DNA of 64,000 nucleotides. Source: Streptacidiphilus sp. P02-A3a. Its GTDB lineage: Bacteria; Actinomycetota; Actinomycetes; Streptomycetales; Streptomycetaceae. Positions 1,058 to 29,565 of this stretch are shown piece after piece; within the stretch, counting starts at the first letter, position 1; every line of letters starts with the position of its first letter. A model generated the notes under the pieces. That model was not told the DNA's origin, did no database searches, and saw nothing but the letters and a program-made list of their open reading frames with translations. Location of the stretch: positions 939,922 to 1,003,921 of the forward strand of contig NZ_CP048289.1 of NCBI RefSeq assembly GCF_014084105.1, in the 5' to 3' direction. Both the position numbers and the translations under genes were made by a program.

Positions 1058-2728
1058 GTGACCAGATCAGTATTAGTAGGACGTGCCGCCGTGATCACCG
1101 CCGCGGCCCTCATCGGGGCCTTCGGCCTGGCCGGGACCCCCGCGCTGGCGGGCACCCCGGCCGCCGCCGGTGGCGCCCGGGCCGCGGCCGTCGGCGCCGC
1201 CGACACCCGCGCCTCCGCCATCGTCGCCCTCGGCGACAGCGCCATCTCCGGCGAGGGCGCGGGCACCGACACCGACGACGCCTATGTCCCCGGGACCGAC
1301 GGTCCGACGAACTTCTGCCACCGCAGCACCTCGTCCGAGATCTTCGACACCGGGCTGTCCGGCGTCACCGGGGTCGACCTCGCCTGTTCCGGCGCGCAGA
1401 CCGGCGACCTGGTGAGCGACCCGACCCTGGCCAAGGTCACCGGCTCCGGCAGCGGTGACTTCGGCGAGCCCAAGCAGGACGTCGAACTCGCCCGGACCGC
1501 CGCCCAGTACCAGGTGAAGATGGTCGTCGTCACCATCGGCGCCAACGACGACTTCGACTTCAGCGGGATCATGGAGAGCTGCCTCGGGCAGTACTTCCCG
1601 ATCCCGCAGTCCGAGGGCTGCCGGGACACCATCGGCAGCGCGGCCATCACCGCGCGGGCCCAGGCGGTCATCCCGAAGATCGAGGCGGCGCTCACCGACG
1701 TCCGGCAGACCATGCGCGACGCCGGCTACGCCGACGGCTCGTACCAGCTGGTGATGCAGTCGTACTTCACCCCGATCACCCCGGACATCCGCAGCAACAC
1801 CTACGCGGCGAAGGTCGCCGACGGCTGCCCGGCCTACCCGGAGGACCTGGCCTGGGGCCACAACTGGGTGGTCCCGCAGCTGGACGACGCGCTGCGGACC
1901 GCCGCCGAGGCGGTACCCGGCGTGCGCTTCCTCGACCAGCGCCGGGTCAGCTACGGCCATGAGGTCTGCGCGGAGATGACCACCTCGCCGTACGAGTACA
2001 CCAACGGCGACGTGATCGACACCAGCGAGCTCACCCGCAACGGCTGCGACTACTCCATCGGCATCCTCGGCCTGTGCGAGGACGAGATCCGGCAGTCCTT
2101 CCACCTGCGGGTCGCCGGGTACCAGGGCGAGGGCGCCTGCCTCGGCGAGTTCTTCGACGCGCCGAACCAGCAGGAGGCCTACTGCACCCTGGACCAGGGC
2201 GACGGGACGACCATCGAACCGCTGACGGTCGGCCGGCCGTTCAACGACGCGCCACAGGACGGCGCCTGGTTCCAGCTCAGCAACCACGCCACCGGCCAGG
2301 TGCTGGACTTCTCCGGCGGCGGCGACTACGGCGACAGCACCAACGGCCGTCCGGCGATCACCTATCCGGCCGACGGCGGGCTGAACCAGTCCTTCGTCTT
2401 CGAGGCCAAGCCGGGCGGCAGCTACGAGCTGGACTTCAGCGGCAACCGGGACATGTGCCTGGACGCCACCGGTGGCTCCACCGCCGCCGGAACCGCGCTG
2501 GAGCAGTGGGGCTGCACCGGCAACGGCAACCAGCACTGGGTGCTCGAACCGGCGGGCAACGGCCTGTACAAGGTCGCCGACTCGGAGAACACGGGCATGG
2601 TCGCCACCCTCGGCAGCAGCTCGCTGACCGACTCCAGCGGCAACCCGGTCACCGTGCTCCAGCCCGACACCGGCGCGGCCGGGCAGCTGTGGCAGCTGAC
2701 CCTGCTGGGCATCGTCTACCTGGGCTGA
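1058..2728 (+). CDS. Secreted SGNH/GDSL hydrolase with C-terminal ricin-type lectin domain
   Basis: 556 aa. GTG start with AGGAG about 7 nt upstream. A Sec signal peptide covers residues 1-32. The SGNH hydrolase domain shows block I GDSAISGEG (nucleophile Ser61) and block III GAND near residue 163. Residues from about 400 to the end form a ricin B-like domain with QHW and QLW motifs and paired Cys, which usually binds sugar polymers. Likely role: extracellular esterase or lipase acting on a polysaccharide-associated substrate. Codon 6 is TTA (1073-1075), so translation should depend on tRNA-Leu(UAA). A strong hairpin at 2738-2789 ends the transcript. Confidence 0.88.
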   Translation: MTRSVLVGRAAVITAAALIGAFGLAGTPALAGTPAAAGGARAAAVGAADTRASAIVALGDSAISGEGAGTDTDDAYVPGTDGPTNFCHRSTSSEIFDTGLSGVTGVDLACSGAQTGDLVSDPTLAKVTGSGSGDFGEPKQDVELARTAAQYQVKMVVVTIGANDDFDFSGIMESCLGQYFPIPQSEGCRDTIGSAAITARAQAVIPKIEAALTDVRQTMRDAGYADGSYQLVMQSYFTPITPDIRSNTYAAKVADGCPAYPEDLAWGHNWVVPQLDDALRTAAEAVPGVRFLDQRRVSYGHEVCAEMTTSPYEYTNGDVIDTSELTRNGCDYSIGILGLCEDEIRQSFHLRVAGYQGEGACLGEFFDAPNQQEAYCTLDQGDGTTIEPLTVGRPFNDAPQDGAWFQLSNHATGQVLDFSGGGDYGDSTNGRPAITYPADGGLNQSFVFEAKPGGSYELDFSGNRDMCLDATGGSTAAGTALEQWGCTGNGNQHWVLEPAGNGLYKVADSENTGMVATLGSSSLTDSSGNPVTVLQPDTGAAGQLWQLTLLGIVYLG

Positions 2729-2789: not shown

Positions 2790-2943
2790 CCGAGCCCGGG
2801 CCGCGTCCCTTCGCGCTCGGATCATTTTGCCATCCCTTTACAACCGGGTCGGATGCCCCGTCGTCTCTCCGCTCGATCTGAACAACGGTCAGCCCGCCAC
2901 GGCCCTCCGGGGCCGGGCCGACCCGACGAGAGAGAAGCCGTCC

Positions 2944-3777
2944 ATGCGTATGTCCACCCTCGCCGTTGGCGCGATGGCCTGCACCGCCGTGGTGCTCGGG
3001 TCCGCCCCCGCCATGGCCGCGAGCTCCGACTCGGCCGCCGCCAAGACGCCGATGTGCGCCACCTCCCAGCTGACCGCGTCGCTCGGCGGCGGGGACGCCG
3101 GTGCCGGGAACCTGTACCGCTTCCTGCTGCTGACCAACCACAGCCACACCAGCTGCCAGCTCGACGGCTACCCGGGCCTGTCGCTGCTGAACGCCCACGG
3201 CCAGGAGATCGGCGCCCCGGCGACGTTCGACCACAACTTCAGCTACGCCCCGGTCACGCTGCGGCCGGGCCAGGCCGTCAGCGACACCATCCACACCCTC
3301 AACTCCGGCGCCACCAGCTGCCAGGGCACCTCCACCGAGCTGCGGATCTACCCGCCCGGCAACAAGGCCGCGCTGGTCATCCCCGGCAAGGTGATGCTCT
3401 GCGGCAACCTGCTCAGCGTCACCCCCTTCGGCCGCGGCACCACCGGCAACCCGCCCGACGGCACGGCCGTGGCCCCGATCAGTGACACCTCCAGCTCGCC
3501 GAGCCCCGCCGCCACCCAGACGCCGTCCGCGGCCCCGACCAACGGCCCGTCCGCGTCGGCCGCGCCCGCCTCCGGTGGCACCGGCAGCGGCGGCGCGTCC
3601 GCCGCCCCGACCTCCGCCTCCGTCGGCGTGGTGCCGTCGGGCGCCCCCGACACCGGCGTGCCGGTGACCGACTCCAGCAGCGACACCGGCCTGATCGCCG
3701 GTGCCTGCGCCATCGCCGCGGCGCTGTTCGGCGGGCTCGGCCTGATGCTGCGTCGCAGGTCGCAGGCTCGGGGCTGA
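2944..3777 (+). CDS. Secreted DUF4232 protein with possible C-terminal cell-wall sorting signal
   Basis: 277 aa, ATG start; the frame is open far upstream, but the Sec signal peptide (residues 1-24, ending PAMAAS) fixes this start. The DUF4232 domain (about 36-165, four Cys, motif YPGLSLLN) is followed by a Pro/Ser/Thr/Gly-rich stalk. The C-terminus has APDTG (234-238) and SSDTG, a 20-residue hydrophobic segment (250-269) and RRR. That is the architecture of a sortase substrate, although neither motif is a canonical LPxTG or LAxTG. The sortase gene begins 3 nt after the stop, which supports surface anchoring. DUF4232 function is unknown. The domain is closely similar to the one at 5104-6165. 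Confidence 0.85.
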   Translation: MRMSTLAVGAMACTAVVLGSAPAMAASSDSAAAKTPMCATSQLTASLGGGDAGAGNLYRFLLLTNHSHTSCQLDGYPGLSLLNAHGQEIGAPATFDHNFSYAPVTLRPGQAVSDTIHTLNSGATSCQGTSTELRIYPPGNKAALVIPGKVMLCGNLLSVTPFGRGTTGNPPDGTAVAPISDTSSSPSPAATQTPSAAPTNGPSASAAPASGGTGSGGASAAPTSASVGVVPSGAPDTGVPVTDSSSDTGLIAGACAIAAALFGGLGLMLRRRSQARG

Positions 3778-3780
3778 CCC

Positions 3781-4512
3781 TTGCGGCGTAGCGGATCGGC
3801 TCGCGACAGTCAGCACGGAGTCCACCGTCGGGGCCCTGGCCGGAAGGGGGCCGCGACGGCACGCGGGCGCGCCGCCGCGCGCTGGTGCGGGACGCTGGCT
3901 GCCCTGCTGCTCGCCACCTCCGGCGCCGTGACCCAGCTCTCCGGCTGCGCGGCCCACAACCCGGCCACGGCCGGGACGGCGGCGGCGCAGTCCTCGCTCG
4001 CGGCCGTCCCGGTCACCGCCCCCAGCGGCAGCGCGGCGCCGCGCCCGCTGGCCCGGTCGGTACCGGAGCGGCTGGAGATCCCCGCCATCGGCGTCGACAC
4101 CCCGATCATGGCGGTCGGCCTCGGCCCGGACGGAACCGTCGGCGTCCCCCCGATCGAGGCGAACGCCCCGGCCGGGTGGTACCAGTACTCGCCCACACCC
4201 GGGCAGGTCGGACCAGCGGTGATCCTCGGCCACGTGACCGTCGGCCAGTACGGCGACGGGGTGTTCCTGCACCTCGCGCGGCTGGCCGCGGGCGACCGGG
4301 TGGTCGTGGTGCTCCAGGACGGCGCGTCGGCGGTGTTCACCGTGGACTCGGTGCAGACCGTGTCCAAGGCCCGTTTCCCCACGTCCGCCGTCTACGGCAG
4401 CGTGGACCGGCCGGAGCTGCGACTGATCACCTGCGCGGGCCCGCGCGGGGCAGGCGGCACCGGCTACTCCGAGAACACCATCGTCTACGCGTCCCTGGCC
4501 GACGCGAGTTGA
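3781..4512 (+). CDS. Class F-type sortase
   Basis: 243 aa with a TTG start, tightly coupled to the upstream DUF4232 gene; no clear ribosome-binding site, so the start is uncertain. A basic N-terminus and one membrane segment (about 37-55) precede an extracellular sortase domain that begins LEIPAIGVDTPI. Catalytic His151 lies in GHVT and Cys218 in LITCAG. The basic residue usually found in the last strand is not obvious; the nearest Arg is in GPRGAGG, so activity should be checked. Sortases cleave a C-terminal sorting motif and transfer the protein to a cell-surface amine. The likely substrate is the adjacent DUF4232 protein. Confidence 0.85.
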   Translation: MRRSGSARDSQHGVHRRGPGRKGAATARGRAAARWCGTLAALLLATSGAVTQLSGCAAHNPATAGTAAAQSSLAAVPVTAPSGSAAPRPLARSVPERLEIPAIGVDTPIMAVGLGPDGTVGVPPIEANAPAGWYQYSPTPGQVGPAVILGHVTVGQYGDGVFLHLARLAAGDRVVVVLQDGASAVFTVDSVQTVSKARFPTSAVYGSVDRPELRLITCAGPRGAGGTGYSENTIVYASLADAS

Positions 4513-4519
4513 CGAATTG

Positions 4520-5107
4520 ATGGCTGATTGGCGCGCGGGTGCCGCAACCGAGGAGCAGCCGGAACCGTCTCGTCCGGTGAGACCCGCCGATCCATCGGCG
4601 GAACCTCTACAGCCGAGGAGAATGGTGCGCCGGTCCCACGAGAGGGAGGCAGCCGAGCTGTTCGCCGCCCTCTACCCGCGCCTCGCGGGCTGGTGCCGTC
4701 GTCTGGTCGACGACGACGGCACCGCCCACGAGATCGCCTCGGAGGCGTTCACCCGCCTCTGGGCGCGCTGGACCAAGGTGGAGGAGCCGCGCGGCTTCCT
4801 CTACGTGACCGCGGCCAACCTGGTCCGAGACCACTGGCGCAAAATGGAGCGTGAACGGCGGGCCATGCGGCGCGCCACCACGGAGGAAGTCGTGAAGCAG
4901 CAGCGCGCCGAGACGGGTGACCCGTCGGTGCGGCTGCTGGTCCAGTCGCTCCCGCAGCGGCTGCGCACACCAGTACTCCTGTACTACTACGCGGACCTGC
5001 CGGTACGTGAGGTGTCCGCGCTGATGGGACGGAACGAGGGAACGGTCAAGTCTGATCTGCACGCGGCCAGGGAACTGCTGCGAGCCAAGCTGGGAGCGGC
5101 GGAGTGA
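4520..5107 (+). CDS. ECF-family RNA polymerase sigma factor
   Basis: 195 aa from ATG 4520, 7 nt after the sortase stop. An in-frame ATG/GTG pair at 4622/4625 just after GAGGAG gives a 161-162 aa form that starts right before region 2 and may be the true start. Region 2 is seen in LFAALYPRLAGWCRRL and RLWARWTKVEEPRGFL. Region 4 helix-turn-helix is DLPVREVSALMGRNEGTVK. The stop overlaps the next gene (GTGA), which implies translational coupling to a membrane partner as in sigma/anti-sigma pairs. Confidence 0.88.
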   Translation: MADWRAGAATEEQPEPSRPVRPADPSAEPLQPRRMVRRSHEREAAELFAALYPRLAGWCRRLVDDDGTAHEIASEAFTRLWARWTKVEEPRGFLYVTAANLVRDHWRKMERERRAMRRATTEEVVKQQRAETGDPSVRLLVQSLPQRLRTPVLLYYYADLPVREVSALMGRNEGTVKSDLHAARELLRAKLGAAE

Positions 5108-6165
5108 GCAGAGACCCCGGTGGGCCCGGCCCCGACCCGCAGCACCCCGACGACCAGCCCGAGCCGTTCGAGCCCGTTGACCCGCCCGAGCCCGTTGACC
5201 CGCCCGAGCCCGTTGACCCGCCCGGACCCCTCGACCAGCCCGAGCCGTTCGAACCGGTGAACCAGCCCGACCCGTTCGACCTCGGCGAGCGGCTGCCGGG
5301 CCTGGGCGCGGCCGAGCCGCTGCTGCGCCCGGAGATCCGGATGCTGCCGGTGCCGACCGGCTCCTTCGAGCGGATCCGCCGCCGGGCCGCCCGCCGCAGA
5401 CGCGGGCGGGTCGCCGCCGGAGGCGGGCTGGTCGTCGCCGTGGCCGCCGGTTCGCTGTACCTGCTGGGCGTGCCCGGCCCCTTCTGGAACGCCGCACCCC
5501 CGGTCACCGCCACCGGCGGCACCCGGTCGCCGTCCGCTTCGCCGACCCCGAGCGCCACCGGCGGGCACGTCTCCGCGCCCCGGCCCCCCGTCCAGAGCCC
5601 GTCCGCCAGCGCGGCCGGCGGCAGCGCCAGCGGCGCGGCCAGCGCTGAGCCGACGGTCGGTACCACCGGCGCGTCCAGCACCAGCGGCGCGCTCACGGCC
5701 ACCCCGTCGGCCTCCGCGGCCAGCAGCTCCGCCCCCGCGACGGCGGTCGTGGGCATCTGCCCGACCTCGCAGCTGACCGCCGCGCTCGGCGGTGGCAACG
5801 CCGGCGCCGGGAACCTGTACCGGTACCTGGTGCTGACCAACGACGGCCCGACCTCCTGCACGCTGGACGGCTTCCCGGGGCTGACGCTGCTGGACGCCCA
5901 GGGCGGGCAGCTCGGCGCCCCGGCGACCTTCGACCACACGATCTCCTACAGCCGGGTGGTACTGGCGCCGGGGGCCTCGGCCAGCGACACCATCCACACC
6001 CTGAACGCGGGCGCCACCAGCTGCTCCGGCACCTCGTCCAGCCTGCGGATCTACCCTCCGGGCGACACCGCCTCGATGCTGATCCCCGGTCAGGTGATGC
6101 TCTGCGGCGGGCAACTCAGCGTCAGCCCGTTCATCACGGGCAGTACCGGCAACCCGCCGTCGTGA
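5104..6165 (+). CDS. Membrane-anchored DUF4232 protein, candidate anti-sigma or sensor partner
   Basis: 353 aa, GTG start overlapping the sigma-factor stop by 4 nt. Residues 1-100 are probably cytoplasmic: a Pro/Glu/Asp-rich segment with PEPVDP repeats, then a basic stretch (SFERIRRRAARRRRGR). One membrane segment spans about 104-123, followed by a Ser/Ala/Thr stalk and an outer DUF4232 domain (about 217-350). That domain is nearly colinear with the one at 2944-3777, sharing GGG-AGAGNLYR, GAPATFDH and SDTIHTLN. Position after an ECF gene suggests the N-terminus controls the sigma factor, but no classic zinc anti-sigma motif (HxxxCxxC) is visible, so this is inference. Confidence 0.75.
   Translation: MSRDPGGPGPDPQHPDDQPEPFEPVDPPEPVDPPEPVDPPGPLDQPEPFEPVNQPDPFDLGERLPGLGAAEPLLRPEIRMLPVPTGSFERIRRRAARRRRGRVAAGGGLVVAVAAGSLYLLGVPGPFWNAAPPVTATGGTRSPSASPTPSATGGHVSAPRPPVQSPSASAAGGSASGAASAEPTVGTTGASSTSGALTATPSASAASSSAPATAVVGICPTSQLTAALGGGNAGAGNLYRYLVLTNDGPTSCTLDGFPGLTLLDAQGGQLGAPATFDHTISYSRVVLAPGASASDTIHTLNAGATSCSGTSSSLRIYPPGDTASMLIPGQVMLCGGQLSVSPFITGSTGNPPS
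5170..5223 (+). repeat. Three 18-bp tandem repeats encoding PEPVDP
   Basis: Units at 5170-5187, 5188-5205 and 5206-5223 are nearly identical and encode the Pro/Glu/Val/Asp repeat in the N-terminus of the membrane DUF4232 protein. Confidence 0.9.
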
Positions 6166-28791: not shown

Positions 28792-29565
28792 GTGAACAGG
28801 ATGACCGAACGCGTGCGGACAGGTACGGCAGGGCGCGGCGGGTCGCGCACGGGTGCGCTGGCGCTCGCCGCCGCGGTGGCCGCGCTGGCGCTGTCGGCCT
28901 GCTCGGCGGGGTCGGGCGGGTCCGGCGGGTCGAGCTCGTCGACCACCCCGAGCGGCGCGGCCTCGGCGCCCGCCTCGTCCACGGCCGGTGGCGGCAGCGG
29001 CGGCAGCGGTGGCGGGAGCAGCGGCGGCAGCGGGAGCGGGACGACCGGCGGCGCGACCTCCGGCACCGGGACGACCGGCGGCGCGACCTCGGGCACGGGT
29101 TCGTCCGGCGGCGCGGCCTCCGGGGCCGGGACGGCGGCGGCCGGGACCGCGGAGTGTGCGAGCTCGCAGCTCTCGGTGGCGCAGGTGAACCCGAGCGTCG
29201 GCGCCGGGCAGTACTACTCGACGCTGGTGTTCACCAACACCTCCGGCGGCAGCTGCGTGATGACCGGCTACCCGGGCGTCTCCTACGTGGTGGCCAACGG
29301 TGTGCAGTCCGGCAACCCGGCCGTTCGCGCGGGCGGCACCGCGAGCACGGTGACCCTCGCGCCCGGCGGCAAGGCCGACGCGGTGCTGCACGACAGCAAC
29401 GGGATATCCGGCTACTCGCCGCAGCAGTGCCGGCTCACCCCGGCGCTGGGGCTGCGGATCTACCCGCCGGACAACAAGGCCGCGCTGTTCCTGCCCTGGA
29501 GCACCAGCCACTGCGCGGGCCTGAGCATCCACCCGCTGTCCATCGGTCCGATCACCCGGGCGTAG
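28792..29565 (+). CDS. DUF4232 lipoprotein
   Basis: 257 aa from GTG 28792, with GGGAGG 5 nt upstream. Signal peptide with lipobox LSACS (Cys about residue 37). A long Gly/Ser/Thr stalk contains tandem TTGGATSGTG repeats. The C-terminal DUF4232 domain (about 125-255) has CASSQLSVAQV, TGYPGVSYV and LRIYPPDNKAALF. It is the most divergent of three DUF4232 proteins in the window. Surface-exposed, function unknown. A 20-bp stem terminator follows. Confidence 0.87.
   Translation: MNRMTERVRTGTAGRGGSRTGALALAAAVAALALSACSAGSGGSGGSSSSTTPSGAASAPASSTAGGGSGGSGGGSSGGSGSGTTGGATSGTGTTGGATSGTGSSGGAASGAGTAAAGTAECASSQLSVAQVNPSVGAGQYYSTLVFTNTSGGSCVMTGYPGVSYVVANGVQSGNPAVRAGGTASTVTLAPGGKADAVLHDSNGISGYSPQQCRLTPALGLRIYPPDNKAALFLPWSTSHCAGLSIHPLSIGPITRA
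29041..29130 (+). repeat. Tandem 30-bp repeats in the DUF4232 lipoprotein stalk
   Basis: Units 29041-29070 and 29071-29100 are nearly identical and a diverged third copy covers 29101-29130. They encode the Gly/Thr/Ser stalk. Confidence 0.85.

Follow-up and report, generated by a model that had tools for sequence, protein, structure and literature searches.

A conserved Streptomycetaceae operon linking a class F sortase and a sorted surface protein to an extracytoplasmic function sigma factor and its probable anti-sigma partner

The window, by which we mean the whole 64,000-nucleotide stretch of Streptacidiphilus sp. P02-A3a DNA that was analyzed, carries at positions 2944–6165 four genes that are one copy of a conserved Streptomycetaceae operon. 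The conserved core of this operon consists of a sorted surface protein (gene 1), a class F sortase (gene 2), an extracytoplasmic function (ECF) sigma factor (gene 3), and a one-pass membrane partner (gene 4), together with a dedicated promoter. We read the operon as a self-contained surface-maintenance circuit, in which an autoregulated sigma/anti-sigma pair would sense the envelope and have as its output a wall-anchored protein and the sortase that anchors it, and we give this reading a probability of roughly two in three.

The four genes, their positions, their shared strand, and their spacing had been described in an earlier reading of the sequence alone (hereafter the sequence-only reading), and the open reading frames agree with that description. 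The promoter at 2837–2866 and the lipobox-like LSGC of the sortase were absent from that description, and the optional nature of DUF4232 lay beyond its reach. Gene 2 starts with TTG, and the genes are separated by 3 nt and 7 nt, followed by a 4-nt GTGA overlap of genes 3 and 4. The features of the operon are as follows.

2825..2831, + strand: TTTTGCC element upstream of the −35 region, from comparison of related loci
2837..2866, + strand: predicted promoter for the module's ECF sigma factor, TTTACAACC-N15-TCGTCT, from the conserved motif
2944..3777, + strand: gene 1, secreted protein with a signal peptide, a DUF4232 domain, a Ser/Thr/Pro/Ala-rich stalk, and a C-terminal sorting signal
3055..3429, + strand: DUF4232 domain of gene 1 (Pfam)
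3631..3759, + strand: sorting signal of gene 1, comprising GAPDTG (3640–3657), a hydrophobic stretch, and a basic tail
3781..4512, + strand: gene 2, class F sortase (NCBIfam) with a lipobox-like LSGC (Cys codon 3946–3948)
4520..5107, + strand: gene 3, ECF sigma factor with regions 2 and 4 (Pfam, NCBIfam)
5104..6165, + strand: gene 4, one-pass membrane protein, probable anti-sigma factor
5314..5409, + strand: conserved cytosolic juxtamembrane motif of gene 4, PLLRPEIRMLPVPTGSFERIRRRAARRRRGR (alignment, profile)
5758..6132, + strand: DUF4232 domain of gene 4, predicted all-beta sandwich (Pfam, model)

Conservation of the operon and its promoter

Related loci were collected with the sigma protein, for which a search of 150 Streptomycetaceae genomes (E <= 1e-30) gave matches at 82 places in 61 genomes. 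The main set comprises 81 loci, namely the window and 80 of the 81 other places, each with its flanks; the remaining place (genome G097) is locus L269. A second set of 80 named loci, the best 80 of 347 relatives, came from a separate scan, and 14 of these are the same DNA as first-set loci, leaving 66 that are new. At the class level, a sigma search (E 1e-28) found a relative in 42 of 394 genomes, 16 of these being in the family, and a remote set of 20 loci was made up of 19 loci outside Streptomycetaceae and L269. The sortase and the gene 4 motif were called by profile, and the sorted protein was called by pattern, after which the misses were read. Families were scored with Pfam and NCBIfam.

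The sequence-only reading had taken the anchoring enzyme, its likely substrate, the sigma factor, and the membrane protein for one unit, and when the four-gene order was sought across Streptomycetaceae the unit proved to be conserved. A sortase lies upstream of the sigma factor in 80 of the 81 loci, the exception being L119, and the gene 4 motif lies downstream in 80 of the 81, the exception being L088, where the motif is readable across a frame break. The sorted protein was called in 76 of the 81 loci; among the five pattern misses, it is present in L127 and L133, whereas L062, L101, and L109 end before it, giving 78 of 78 loci that are long enough to contain it. Because the four-gene order recurs in nearly all 81 related loci, it is not due to chance. 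The module is spread over many Streptomyces, Actinacidiphila, and Streptacidiphilus genomes, and the trio of sorted protein, sortase, and sigma factor is confined to Streptomycetaceae among the genomes searched.

Upstream of gene 1, the window contains CTTTACAACC-N15-TCGTCT, with TTTACA at 2837–2842 and TCGTCT at 2861–2866. In 75 of 76 loci, the corresponding pattern, TTT[AG]CA[AG]-N16-19-CGTC, occurs ahead of the end of the sorted protein. Elsewhere in these 76 loci, it was found 0 times on the same strand (643,446 bases) and 0 times antisense. The only first-set miss, L129, lies at a contig end and has only 1,024 bases before the sigma factor, and L127 and L133, in which the sorted protein had escaped its pattern, also carry the promoter. 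This final pattern was fitted to the first-set loci after reading the upstream regions that had been missed; earlier, narrower patterns were found in 45 of 64 loci and in 53 of 76 loci, the latter with one match elsewhere and three antisense. Applied unchanged to the named set, the pattern matched at 79 of 80 loci (the miss being L161), with 0 matches elsewhere in 772,140 bases, and the fair test, restricted to the new named loci, gave 65 of 66. The remote loci yielded one chance-like match, in L252 (20 loci, 397,324 bases, both strands). An element upstream of the −35 region, TTTGC[CT], is found in 46 of the 76 loci, and the others have related letters.

On the scale of whole genomes, TTTACA-N17-20-CGTCTCT gave 11 matches in nine of ten other genomes and 0 matches in the controls, and 10 of these 11 matches lie before the module. 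The eleventh, in genome G050 (L304 / L312, same genus), precedes a large secreted protein and is a possible extra sigma target. The sign of an autoregulated ECF promoter obtained here is a conserved, position-specific motif, identified by computation, and the sigma factor very probably acts from this promoter on its own operon and on little else.

The sigma factor and its membrane partner

Gene 3 has Pfam matches to sigma-70 regions 2 and 4 only and scores 59.5 bits with TIGR02937 (cut-off 42.9), and its profile matches solved ECF factors, e.g., SigW (2.3e-11). The sequence, alignment, and model of gene 4 indicate that its N-terminus is cytosolic and is followed by a single membrane helix and then an outer stalk, with the model showing one long juxtamembrane/membrane helix. 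Immediately before the membrane, the aligned gene 4 proteins share a motif that reads roughly DDPLxxLLRPxxxxLxPPPGxFExIRRxAARRRR. A profile of the gene 4 N-terminus has a single match in the window's own genome, which is gene 4 itself. Ser, Thr, Pro, and Ala together make up approximately 70% of the outer stalks (medians 0.70 and 0.68), compared with 0.28 of the sigma factor and 0.31 of the sortase.

The remote loci bear most directly on what gene 4 does. In 10 of these 20 loci, the motif stands right behind the sigma factor, and in none does it occur elsewhere; this position, kept despite differing outer parts, is as expected if the motif serves the sigma factor. No sortase was found in the 20 remote loci (the gene lists of L258–L260 being incomplete), and L269 has the sigma factor and a DUF4232 partner without a sortase or sorted protein. 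Because the remote loci keep both the sigma factor and its membrane partner without a sortase, these two are the older unit, which the sortase and sorted protein joined in Streptomycetaceae. The older pairing is the main argument for regulation of the sigma factor by gene 4, which is probably an anti-sigma factor. Outside the family, the membrane proteins that follow the sigma factor in L250, L252–L256, and L262–L267 often have outer parts with TDGGRTW-like repeats, as if they belonged to a broad type of sigma partner whose outer domains can be exchanged.

In the N-terminal part of gene 4, Pfam and NCBIfam gave no match to an anti-sigma domain of class I, II, or III or to any other domain, in a comparison that could miss a short two-helix domain. 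Together with a motif that is short, basic, and perhaps just a topogenic juxtamembrane stretch, and with an outer stalk that resembles the sorted protein's in composition, this would also suit a gene 4 that is another surface protein or that helps to assemble the sorted protein, in which case the sigma factor would be controlled by its own transcription only. We consider this unlikely, given that relatives outside the family keep the sigma factor and a downstream membrane protein, often with the motif, without a sortase or sorted protein, and that the motif profile is single-copy in the genome. Comparison with solved structures gave no relative of gene 4 at E 1; a match of the N-terminal profile to annexins (E 0.001) was taken as chance.

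The matched DUF4232 domains

Both outer proteins of the window carry a DUF4232 domain (Pfam E 5.1e-26 in gene 1 and 1.5e-27 in gene 4), and the two domains are 70% identical as protein and 78% identical as DNA. They are paralogues, as the sequence-only reading had proposed, and they stay matched within a locus. In the main set, the domain is present in both outer genes in 30 of the 81 loci, in neither in 47, and in one only in four; in each of these four, a contig end truncates the side of the other gene. A complete module without DUF4232 was found in 60 of the 80 named loci, nearly all of them from Streptomyces. The named carriers of the domain are Streptacidiphilus sp. 4-A2, Actinacidiphila alni, A. 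cocklensis, A. paucisporea, A. epipremni, and A. acididurans, with three Streptomyces sp. strains and one metagenome-assembled genome (MAG); all ten are DNA of loci already counted.

On a tree of the sigma factor and sortase, each DUF4232 trait changes once, and the tree holds only one independent DUF4232 pair; one or the other of the two counts omits six rows in which a contig ends or the sorted protein was missed. Identity between the two domains is 71.2% within a locus (29 loci) versus 63.9% between loci, and 0 of 5000 random pairings reached as high a value; the partner in the same locus is the nearest of the 29 domains in 10 cases. In the clade to which the window belongs, the domains of genes 1 and 4 cluster by genus, with 100/100 support. 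A clean early duplication was not supported, as the best tree has seven label changes and 0 of 200 bootstrap trees show one origin, and supported branches force two label changes in a careful tree or three in a quick tree with outgroups. Since early duplication alone would not give the likeness within loci, this likeness points to exchange or joint selection.

According to the sequence-only reading, the pair of domains would itself be the sensor: one copy is wall-anchored, the other is tied to the sigma factor, and sigma release would change as the anchored protein is assembled or lost. This would account for the joint presence of the domains in 30 loci, with singles only at the four cut-off contigs, for their matching within loci, and for the same-genus grouping in the window's clade. 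However, the single origin of DUF4232 in the operon makes the co-occurrence one event, gene conversion between near neighbors could match the domains without any function, and the same operon and promoter occur without the domain in 47 of the 81 loci, on both sides of the single DUF4232 clade. Sigma homologues without DUF4232 genes had been named beforehand as the observation that would refute the proposal, and these 47 loci supply that observation for the DUF4232-specific model. DUF4232 is hence rejected as the general heart of the system, L269 having only the sigma factor and a DUF4232 partner, and we find it improbable that the pair forms the sensor. The gain of DUF4232 in the anchored protein and sensor of one clade may nevertheless couple anchoring to sensing there.

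Modeling gave a confident, all-beta structure for the domain (pLDDT 89, pTM 0.81). Foldseek returned no match under E 0.001 for this fold, and the best matches in a second look were the archaellum stator FlaG (Z 6.9 over 94 residues, rmsd 3.3–3.4) and enterococcal WxLIP (Z 6.8), scores in a range that may mean only a common beta-sandwich. The window's own genome has nine DUF4232 matches. A third one in the window, at 29155–29517 (+), is above the genome-scan cut-off and has no sortase or sigma factor nearby; the N-terminal part of its frame resembles a lipoprotein signal (LALSACSAG) followed by a linker rich in Gly and Ser. No literature on DUF4232, alone or with a sigma factor, was found among open-licence papers, the only ones covered, which makes this a weak absence.

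The sortase, its substrate, and a model of the circuit

Gene 2 scores 184.7 bits with the class F sortase family NF033748, above the cut-off of 166, and the catalytic His and Cys are kept in 80 of 80 sortases. An Arg between TC and DN, a candidate for the catalytic Arg, was detected by pattern in 68 of 80. One pattern places a lipobox-like Cys after a hydrophobic run in 64 of 80 sortases, another does so in 63 of 80, and the enzyme is probably a lipoprotein on the outer face of the membrane. No solved-structure relative of the sortase was found at E 0.01. The sorting motif GAPDTG is present in 64 of 76 loci, and gene 1 is borderline with NF058571 (GVDTG_CTERM, cut-off 29), scoring 24.3 bits in the protein scan and 28.6 bits in the genome scan (29.2 bits with frame neighbors). 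Gene 1 is the probable substrate of the module's sortase.

The window's own genome has four class F sortases above the cut-off, another of which has a sorting-signal match directly upstream (positions 2258411 and 2258697). In ten Streptomyces genomes, there were 56 class F sortase matches, nine being the modules themselves; 30 others were examined, and 0 of these 30 had a sigma factor within 1.5 kb, as judged with a profile for this sigma clade and its remote kin that other ECF kinds may escape.

In Streptomyces coelicolor, the counterpart of the module is probably SCO3738-SCO3737-SCO3736-SCO3735, described as a membrane protein, a putative lipoprotein/sortase, an ECF sigma factor, and a downstream secreted protein in the same order (PMC5882110). 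In profiling of a ppm1 mutant, in which the mannose donor used for protein O-mannosylation and for other glycans is missing, SCO3738–3736 was the most significantly up-regulated operon and sigE was unchanged (PMC5882110). The sequence-only reading knew of no described system of this form. That statement is wrong in part, since this induction has been reported; the passages on SCO3738–3736 name no promoter, anti-sigma role, or conservation, and for SCO3735 give read depth only (PMC5882110). SCO3736 is also named in a germination network (PMC3902916). Cold-shock and DEAD-box genes lie near SCO3736; the flanks of the 80 named loci contained two cold-shock and 0 DEAD-box matches, which gives no synteny support.

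The system, already noticed in part in S. coelicolor, works like an ECF/anti-sigma pair. It shares with pairs of ECF factors and membrane-anchored anti-sigma factors the sigma regions 2 and 4, a cotranscribed one-pass partner, and probable autoregulation, but its partner has no recognized anti-sigma domain and its output includes a sortase and substrate (PMC8103513). BldN of the BldN-RsbN pair acts on unlinked genes (PMC8103513; chaplin control, PMC4255298), whereas the module's promoter is found essentially at the operon. Gene 3 is not of the BldN family, as it scores 39.5 bits with TIGR02952 (cut-off 206.45). The chaplin sortase is of class E, and the sortase of the module is of class F. Compared with class F sortases as described (NF033748, PMC13251363), the module's enzyme is above the family cut-off and differs by its link to a sigma factor; the physiological roles of this class are stated to be unknown, and deletion of four class F sortases in Actinoplanes missouriensis gave no phenotype (PMC13251363). 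New in the literature searched are the four-gene architecture, the single dedicated promoter, the older pairing of sigma factor and motif, and the optional, matched DUF4232 domains.

In the surface-maintenance circuit that we propose, the short conserved motif in the cytosolic part of gene 4 would hold the sigma factor inactive at the membrane, and the outer stalk of gene 4, which in one clade ends in the DUF4232 beta-sandwich, would report the state of the envelope. An envelope fault, perhaps an unmannosylated or unanchored surface protein, would release the sigma factor, and free sigma would start transcription of its operon at the TTTACAACC-N15-TCGTCT promoter. Expression would then yield the class F sortase and gene 1, which would be fixed to the wall and restore the anchored protein, and the extra gene 4, made along with more sigma factor, would reset the hold. 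The matched domains of the DUF4232 clade could let the anchored protein bind whatever partner the sensor binds, and so feed back.

The stalks have a composition of the kind where O-mannosylation might be expected, and the window's own genome encodes a protein O-mannosyltransferase. We tentatively consider a more specific form, in which the circuit reads surface glycosylation and anchoring: an unmannosylated gene 4 stalk would be cleaved, the sigma factor freed, and a mannosylated, sortase-anchored coat renewed, with the abundance of this coat reported through the matched DUF4232 domains in Streptacidiphilus and Actinacidiphila. This form is possible, with the odds clearly on the other side.

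Several observations weigh against a surface-maintenance circuit. In L119, the sorted protein, sigma factor, and membrane partner are present, and a sortase is absent between the sorted protein and the sigma factor. In the window's own genome, the stricter promoter form has one match (this operon) versus one in the reversed control, and a second form has three versus three; as these counts match the controls, the case for the promoter rests on position and conservation. The profile of the gene 4 motif matched no anti-sigma factor among solved chains, and the model of the N-terminal part of gene 4 is weak (pLDDT 72.9, pTM 0.25). The S. coelicolor counterpart was assigned by gene order and annotation, not by sequence. 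The RNA-seq covered ppm1, not pmt, and the signal could be loss of lipoglycans or general envelope damage (PMC5882110). Furthermore, the 38 tabulated S. coelicolor glycoproteins exclude the module proteins, with 0 occurrences of "SCO37" in the available text (PMC6593405), and SCO3736 is listed as down-regulated by acid shock (PMC2631018).

A housekeeping cluster, in which a sortase and its substrate came by chance to lie beside an unrelated sigma/anti-sigma pair and were kept there by descent, would fit the common adjacency of class F sortases and substrates, as at 2258411/2258697, and the restriction of the trio to Streptomycetaceae, but is very improbable in view of the one promoter before gene 1, the tight spacing, the conservation over many genomes of three genera, and the co-induction of three of the genes in S. 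coelicolor (PMC5882110).

The upstream neighbor of the operon in the window (1058–2728, +) encodes a secreted GDSL-type hydrolase with a ricin-type lectin domain. Elsewhere in the same genome, the pairs of matches at 4,620,149/4,868,550, 4,707,849/4,780,479, and 4,487,436/5,001,155 are mirrored around a point near 4,744,360, with the two members of each pair on opposite strands. This pattern suggests an inverted repeat of great length, which may reflect joined chromosome ends or an assembly effect.

In this operon, one lineage of class F sortases is accompanied by a dedicated sigma factor and a single strong promoter, as well as by a probable substrate and a probable anti-sigma factor. Through S. 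coelicolor, this lineage also gains a published inducing condition, and each link can be tested. If the link to the loss of polyprenyl phosphate mannose is direct, the circuit would give actinomycetes a transcriptional read-out of glycosylation at their surface.

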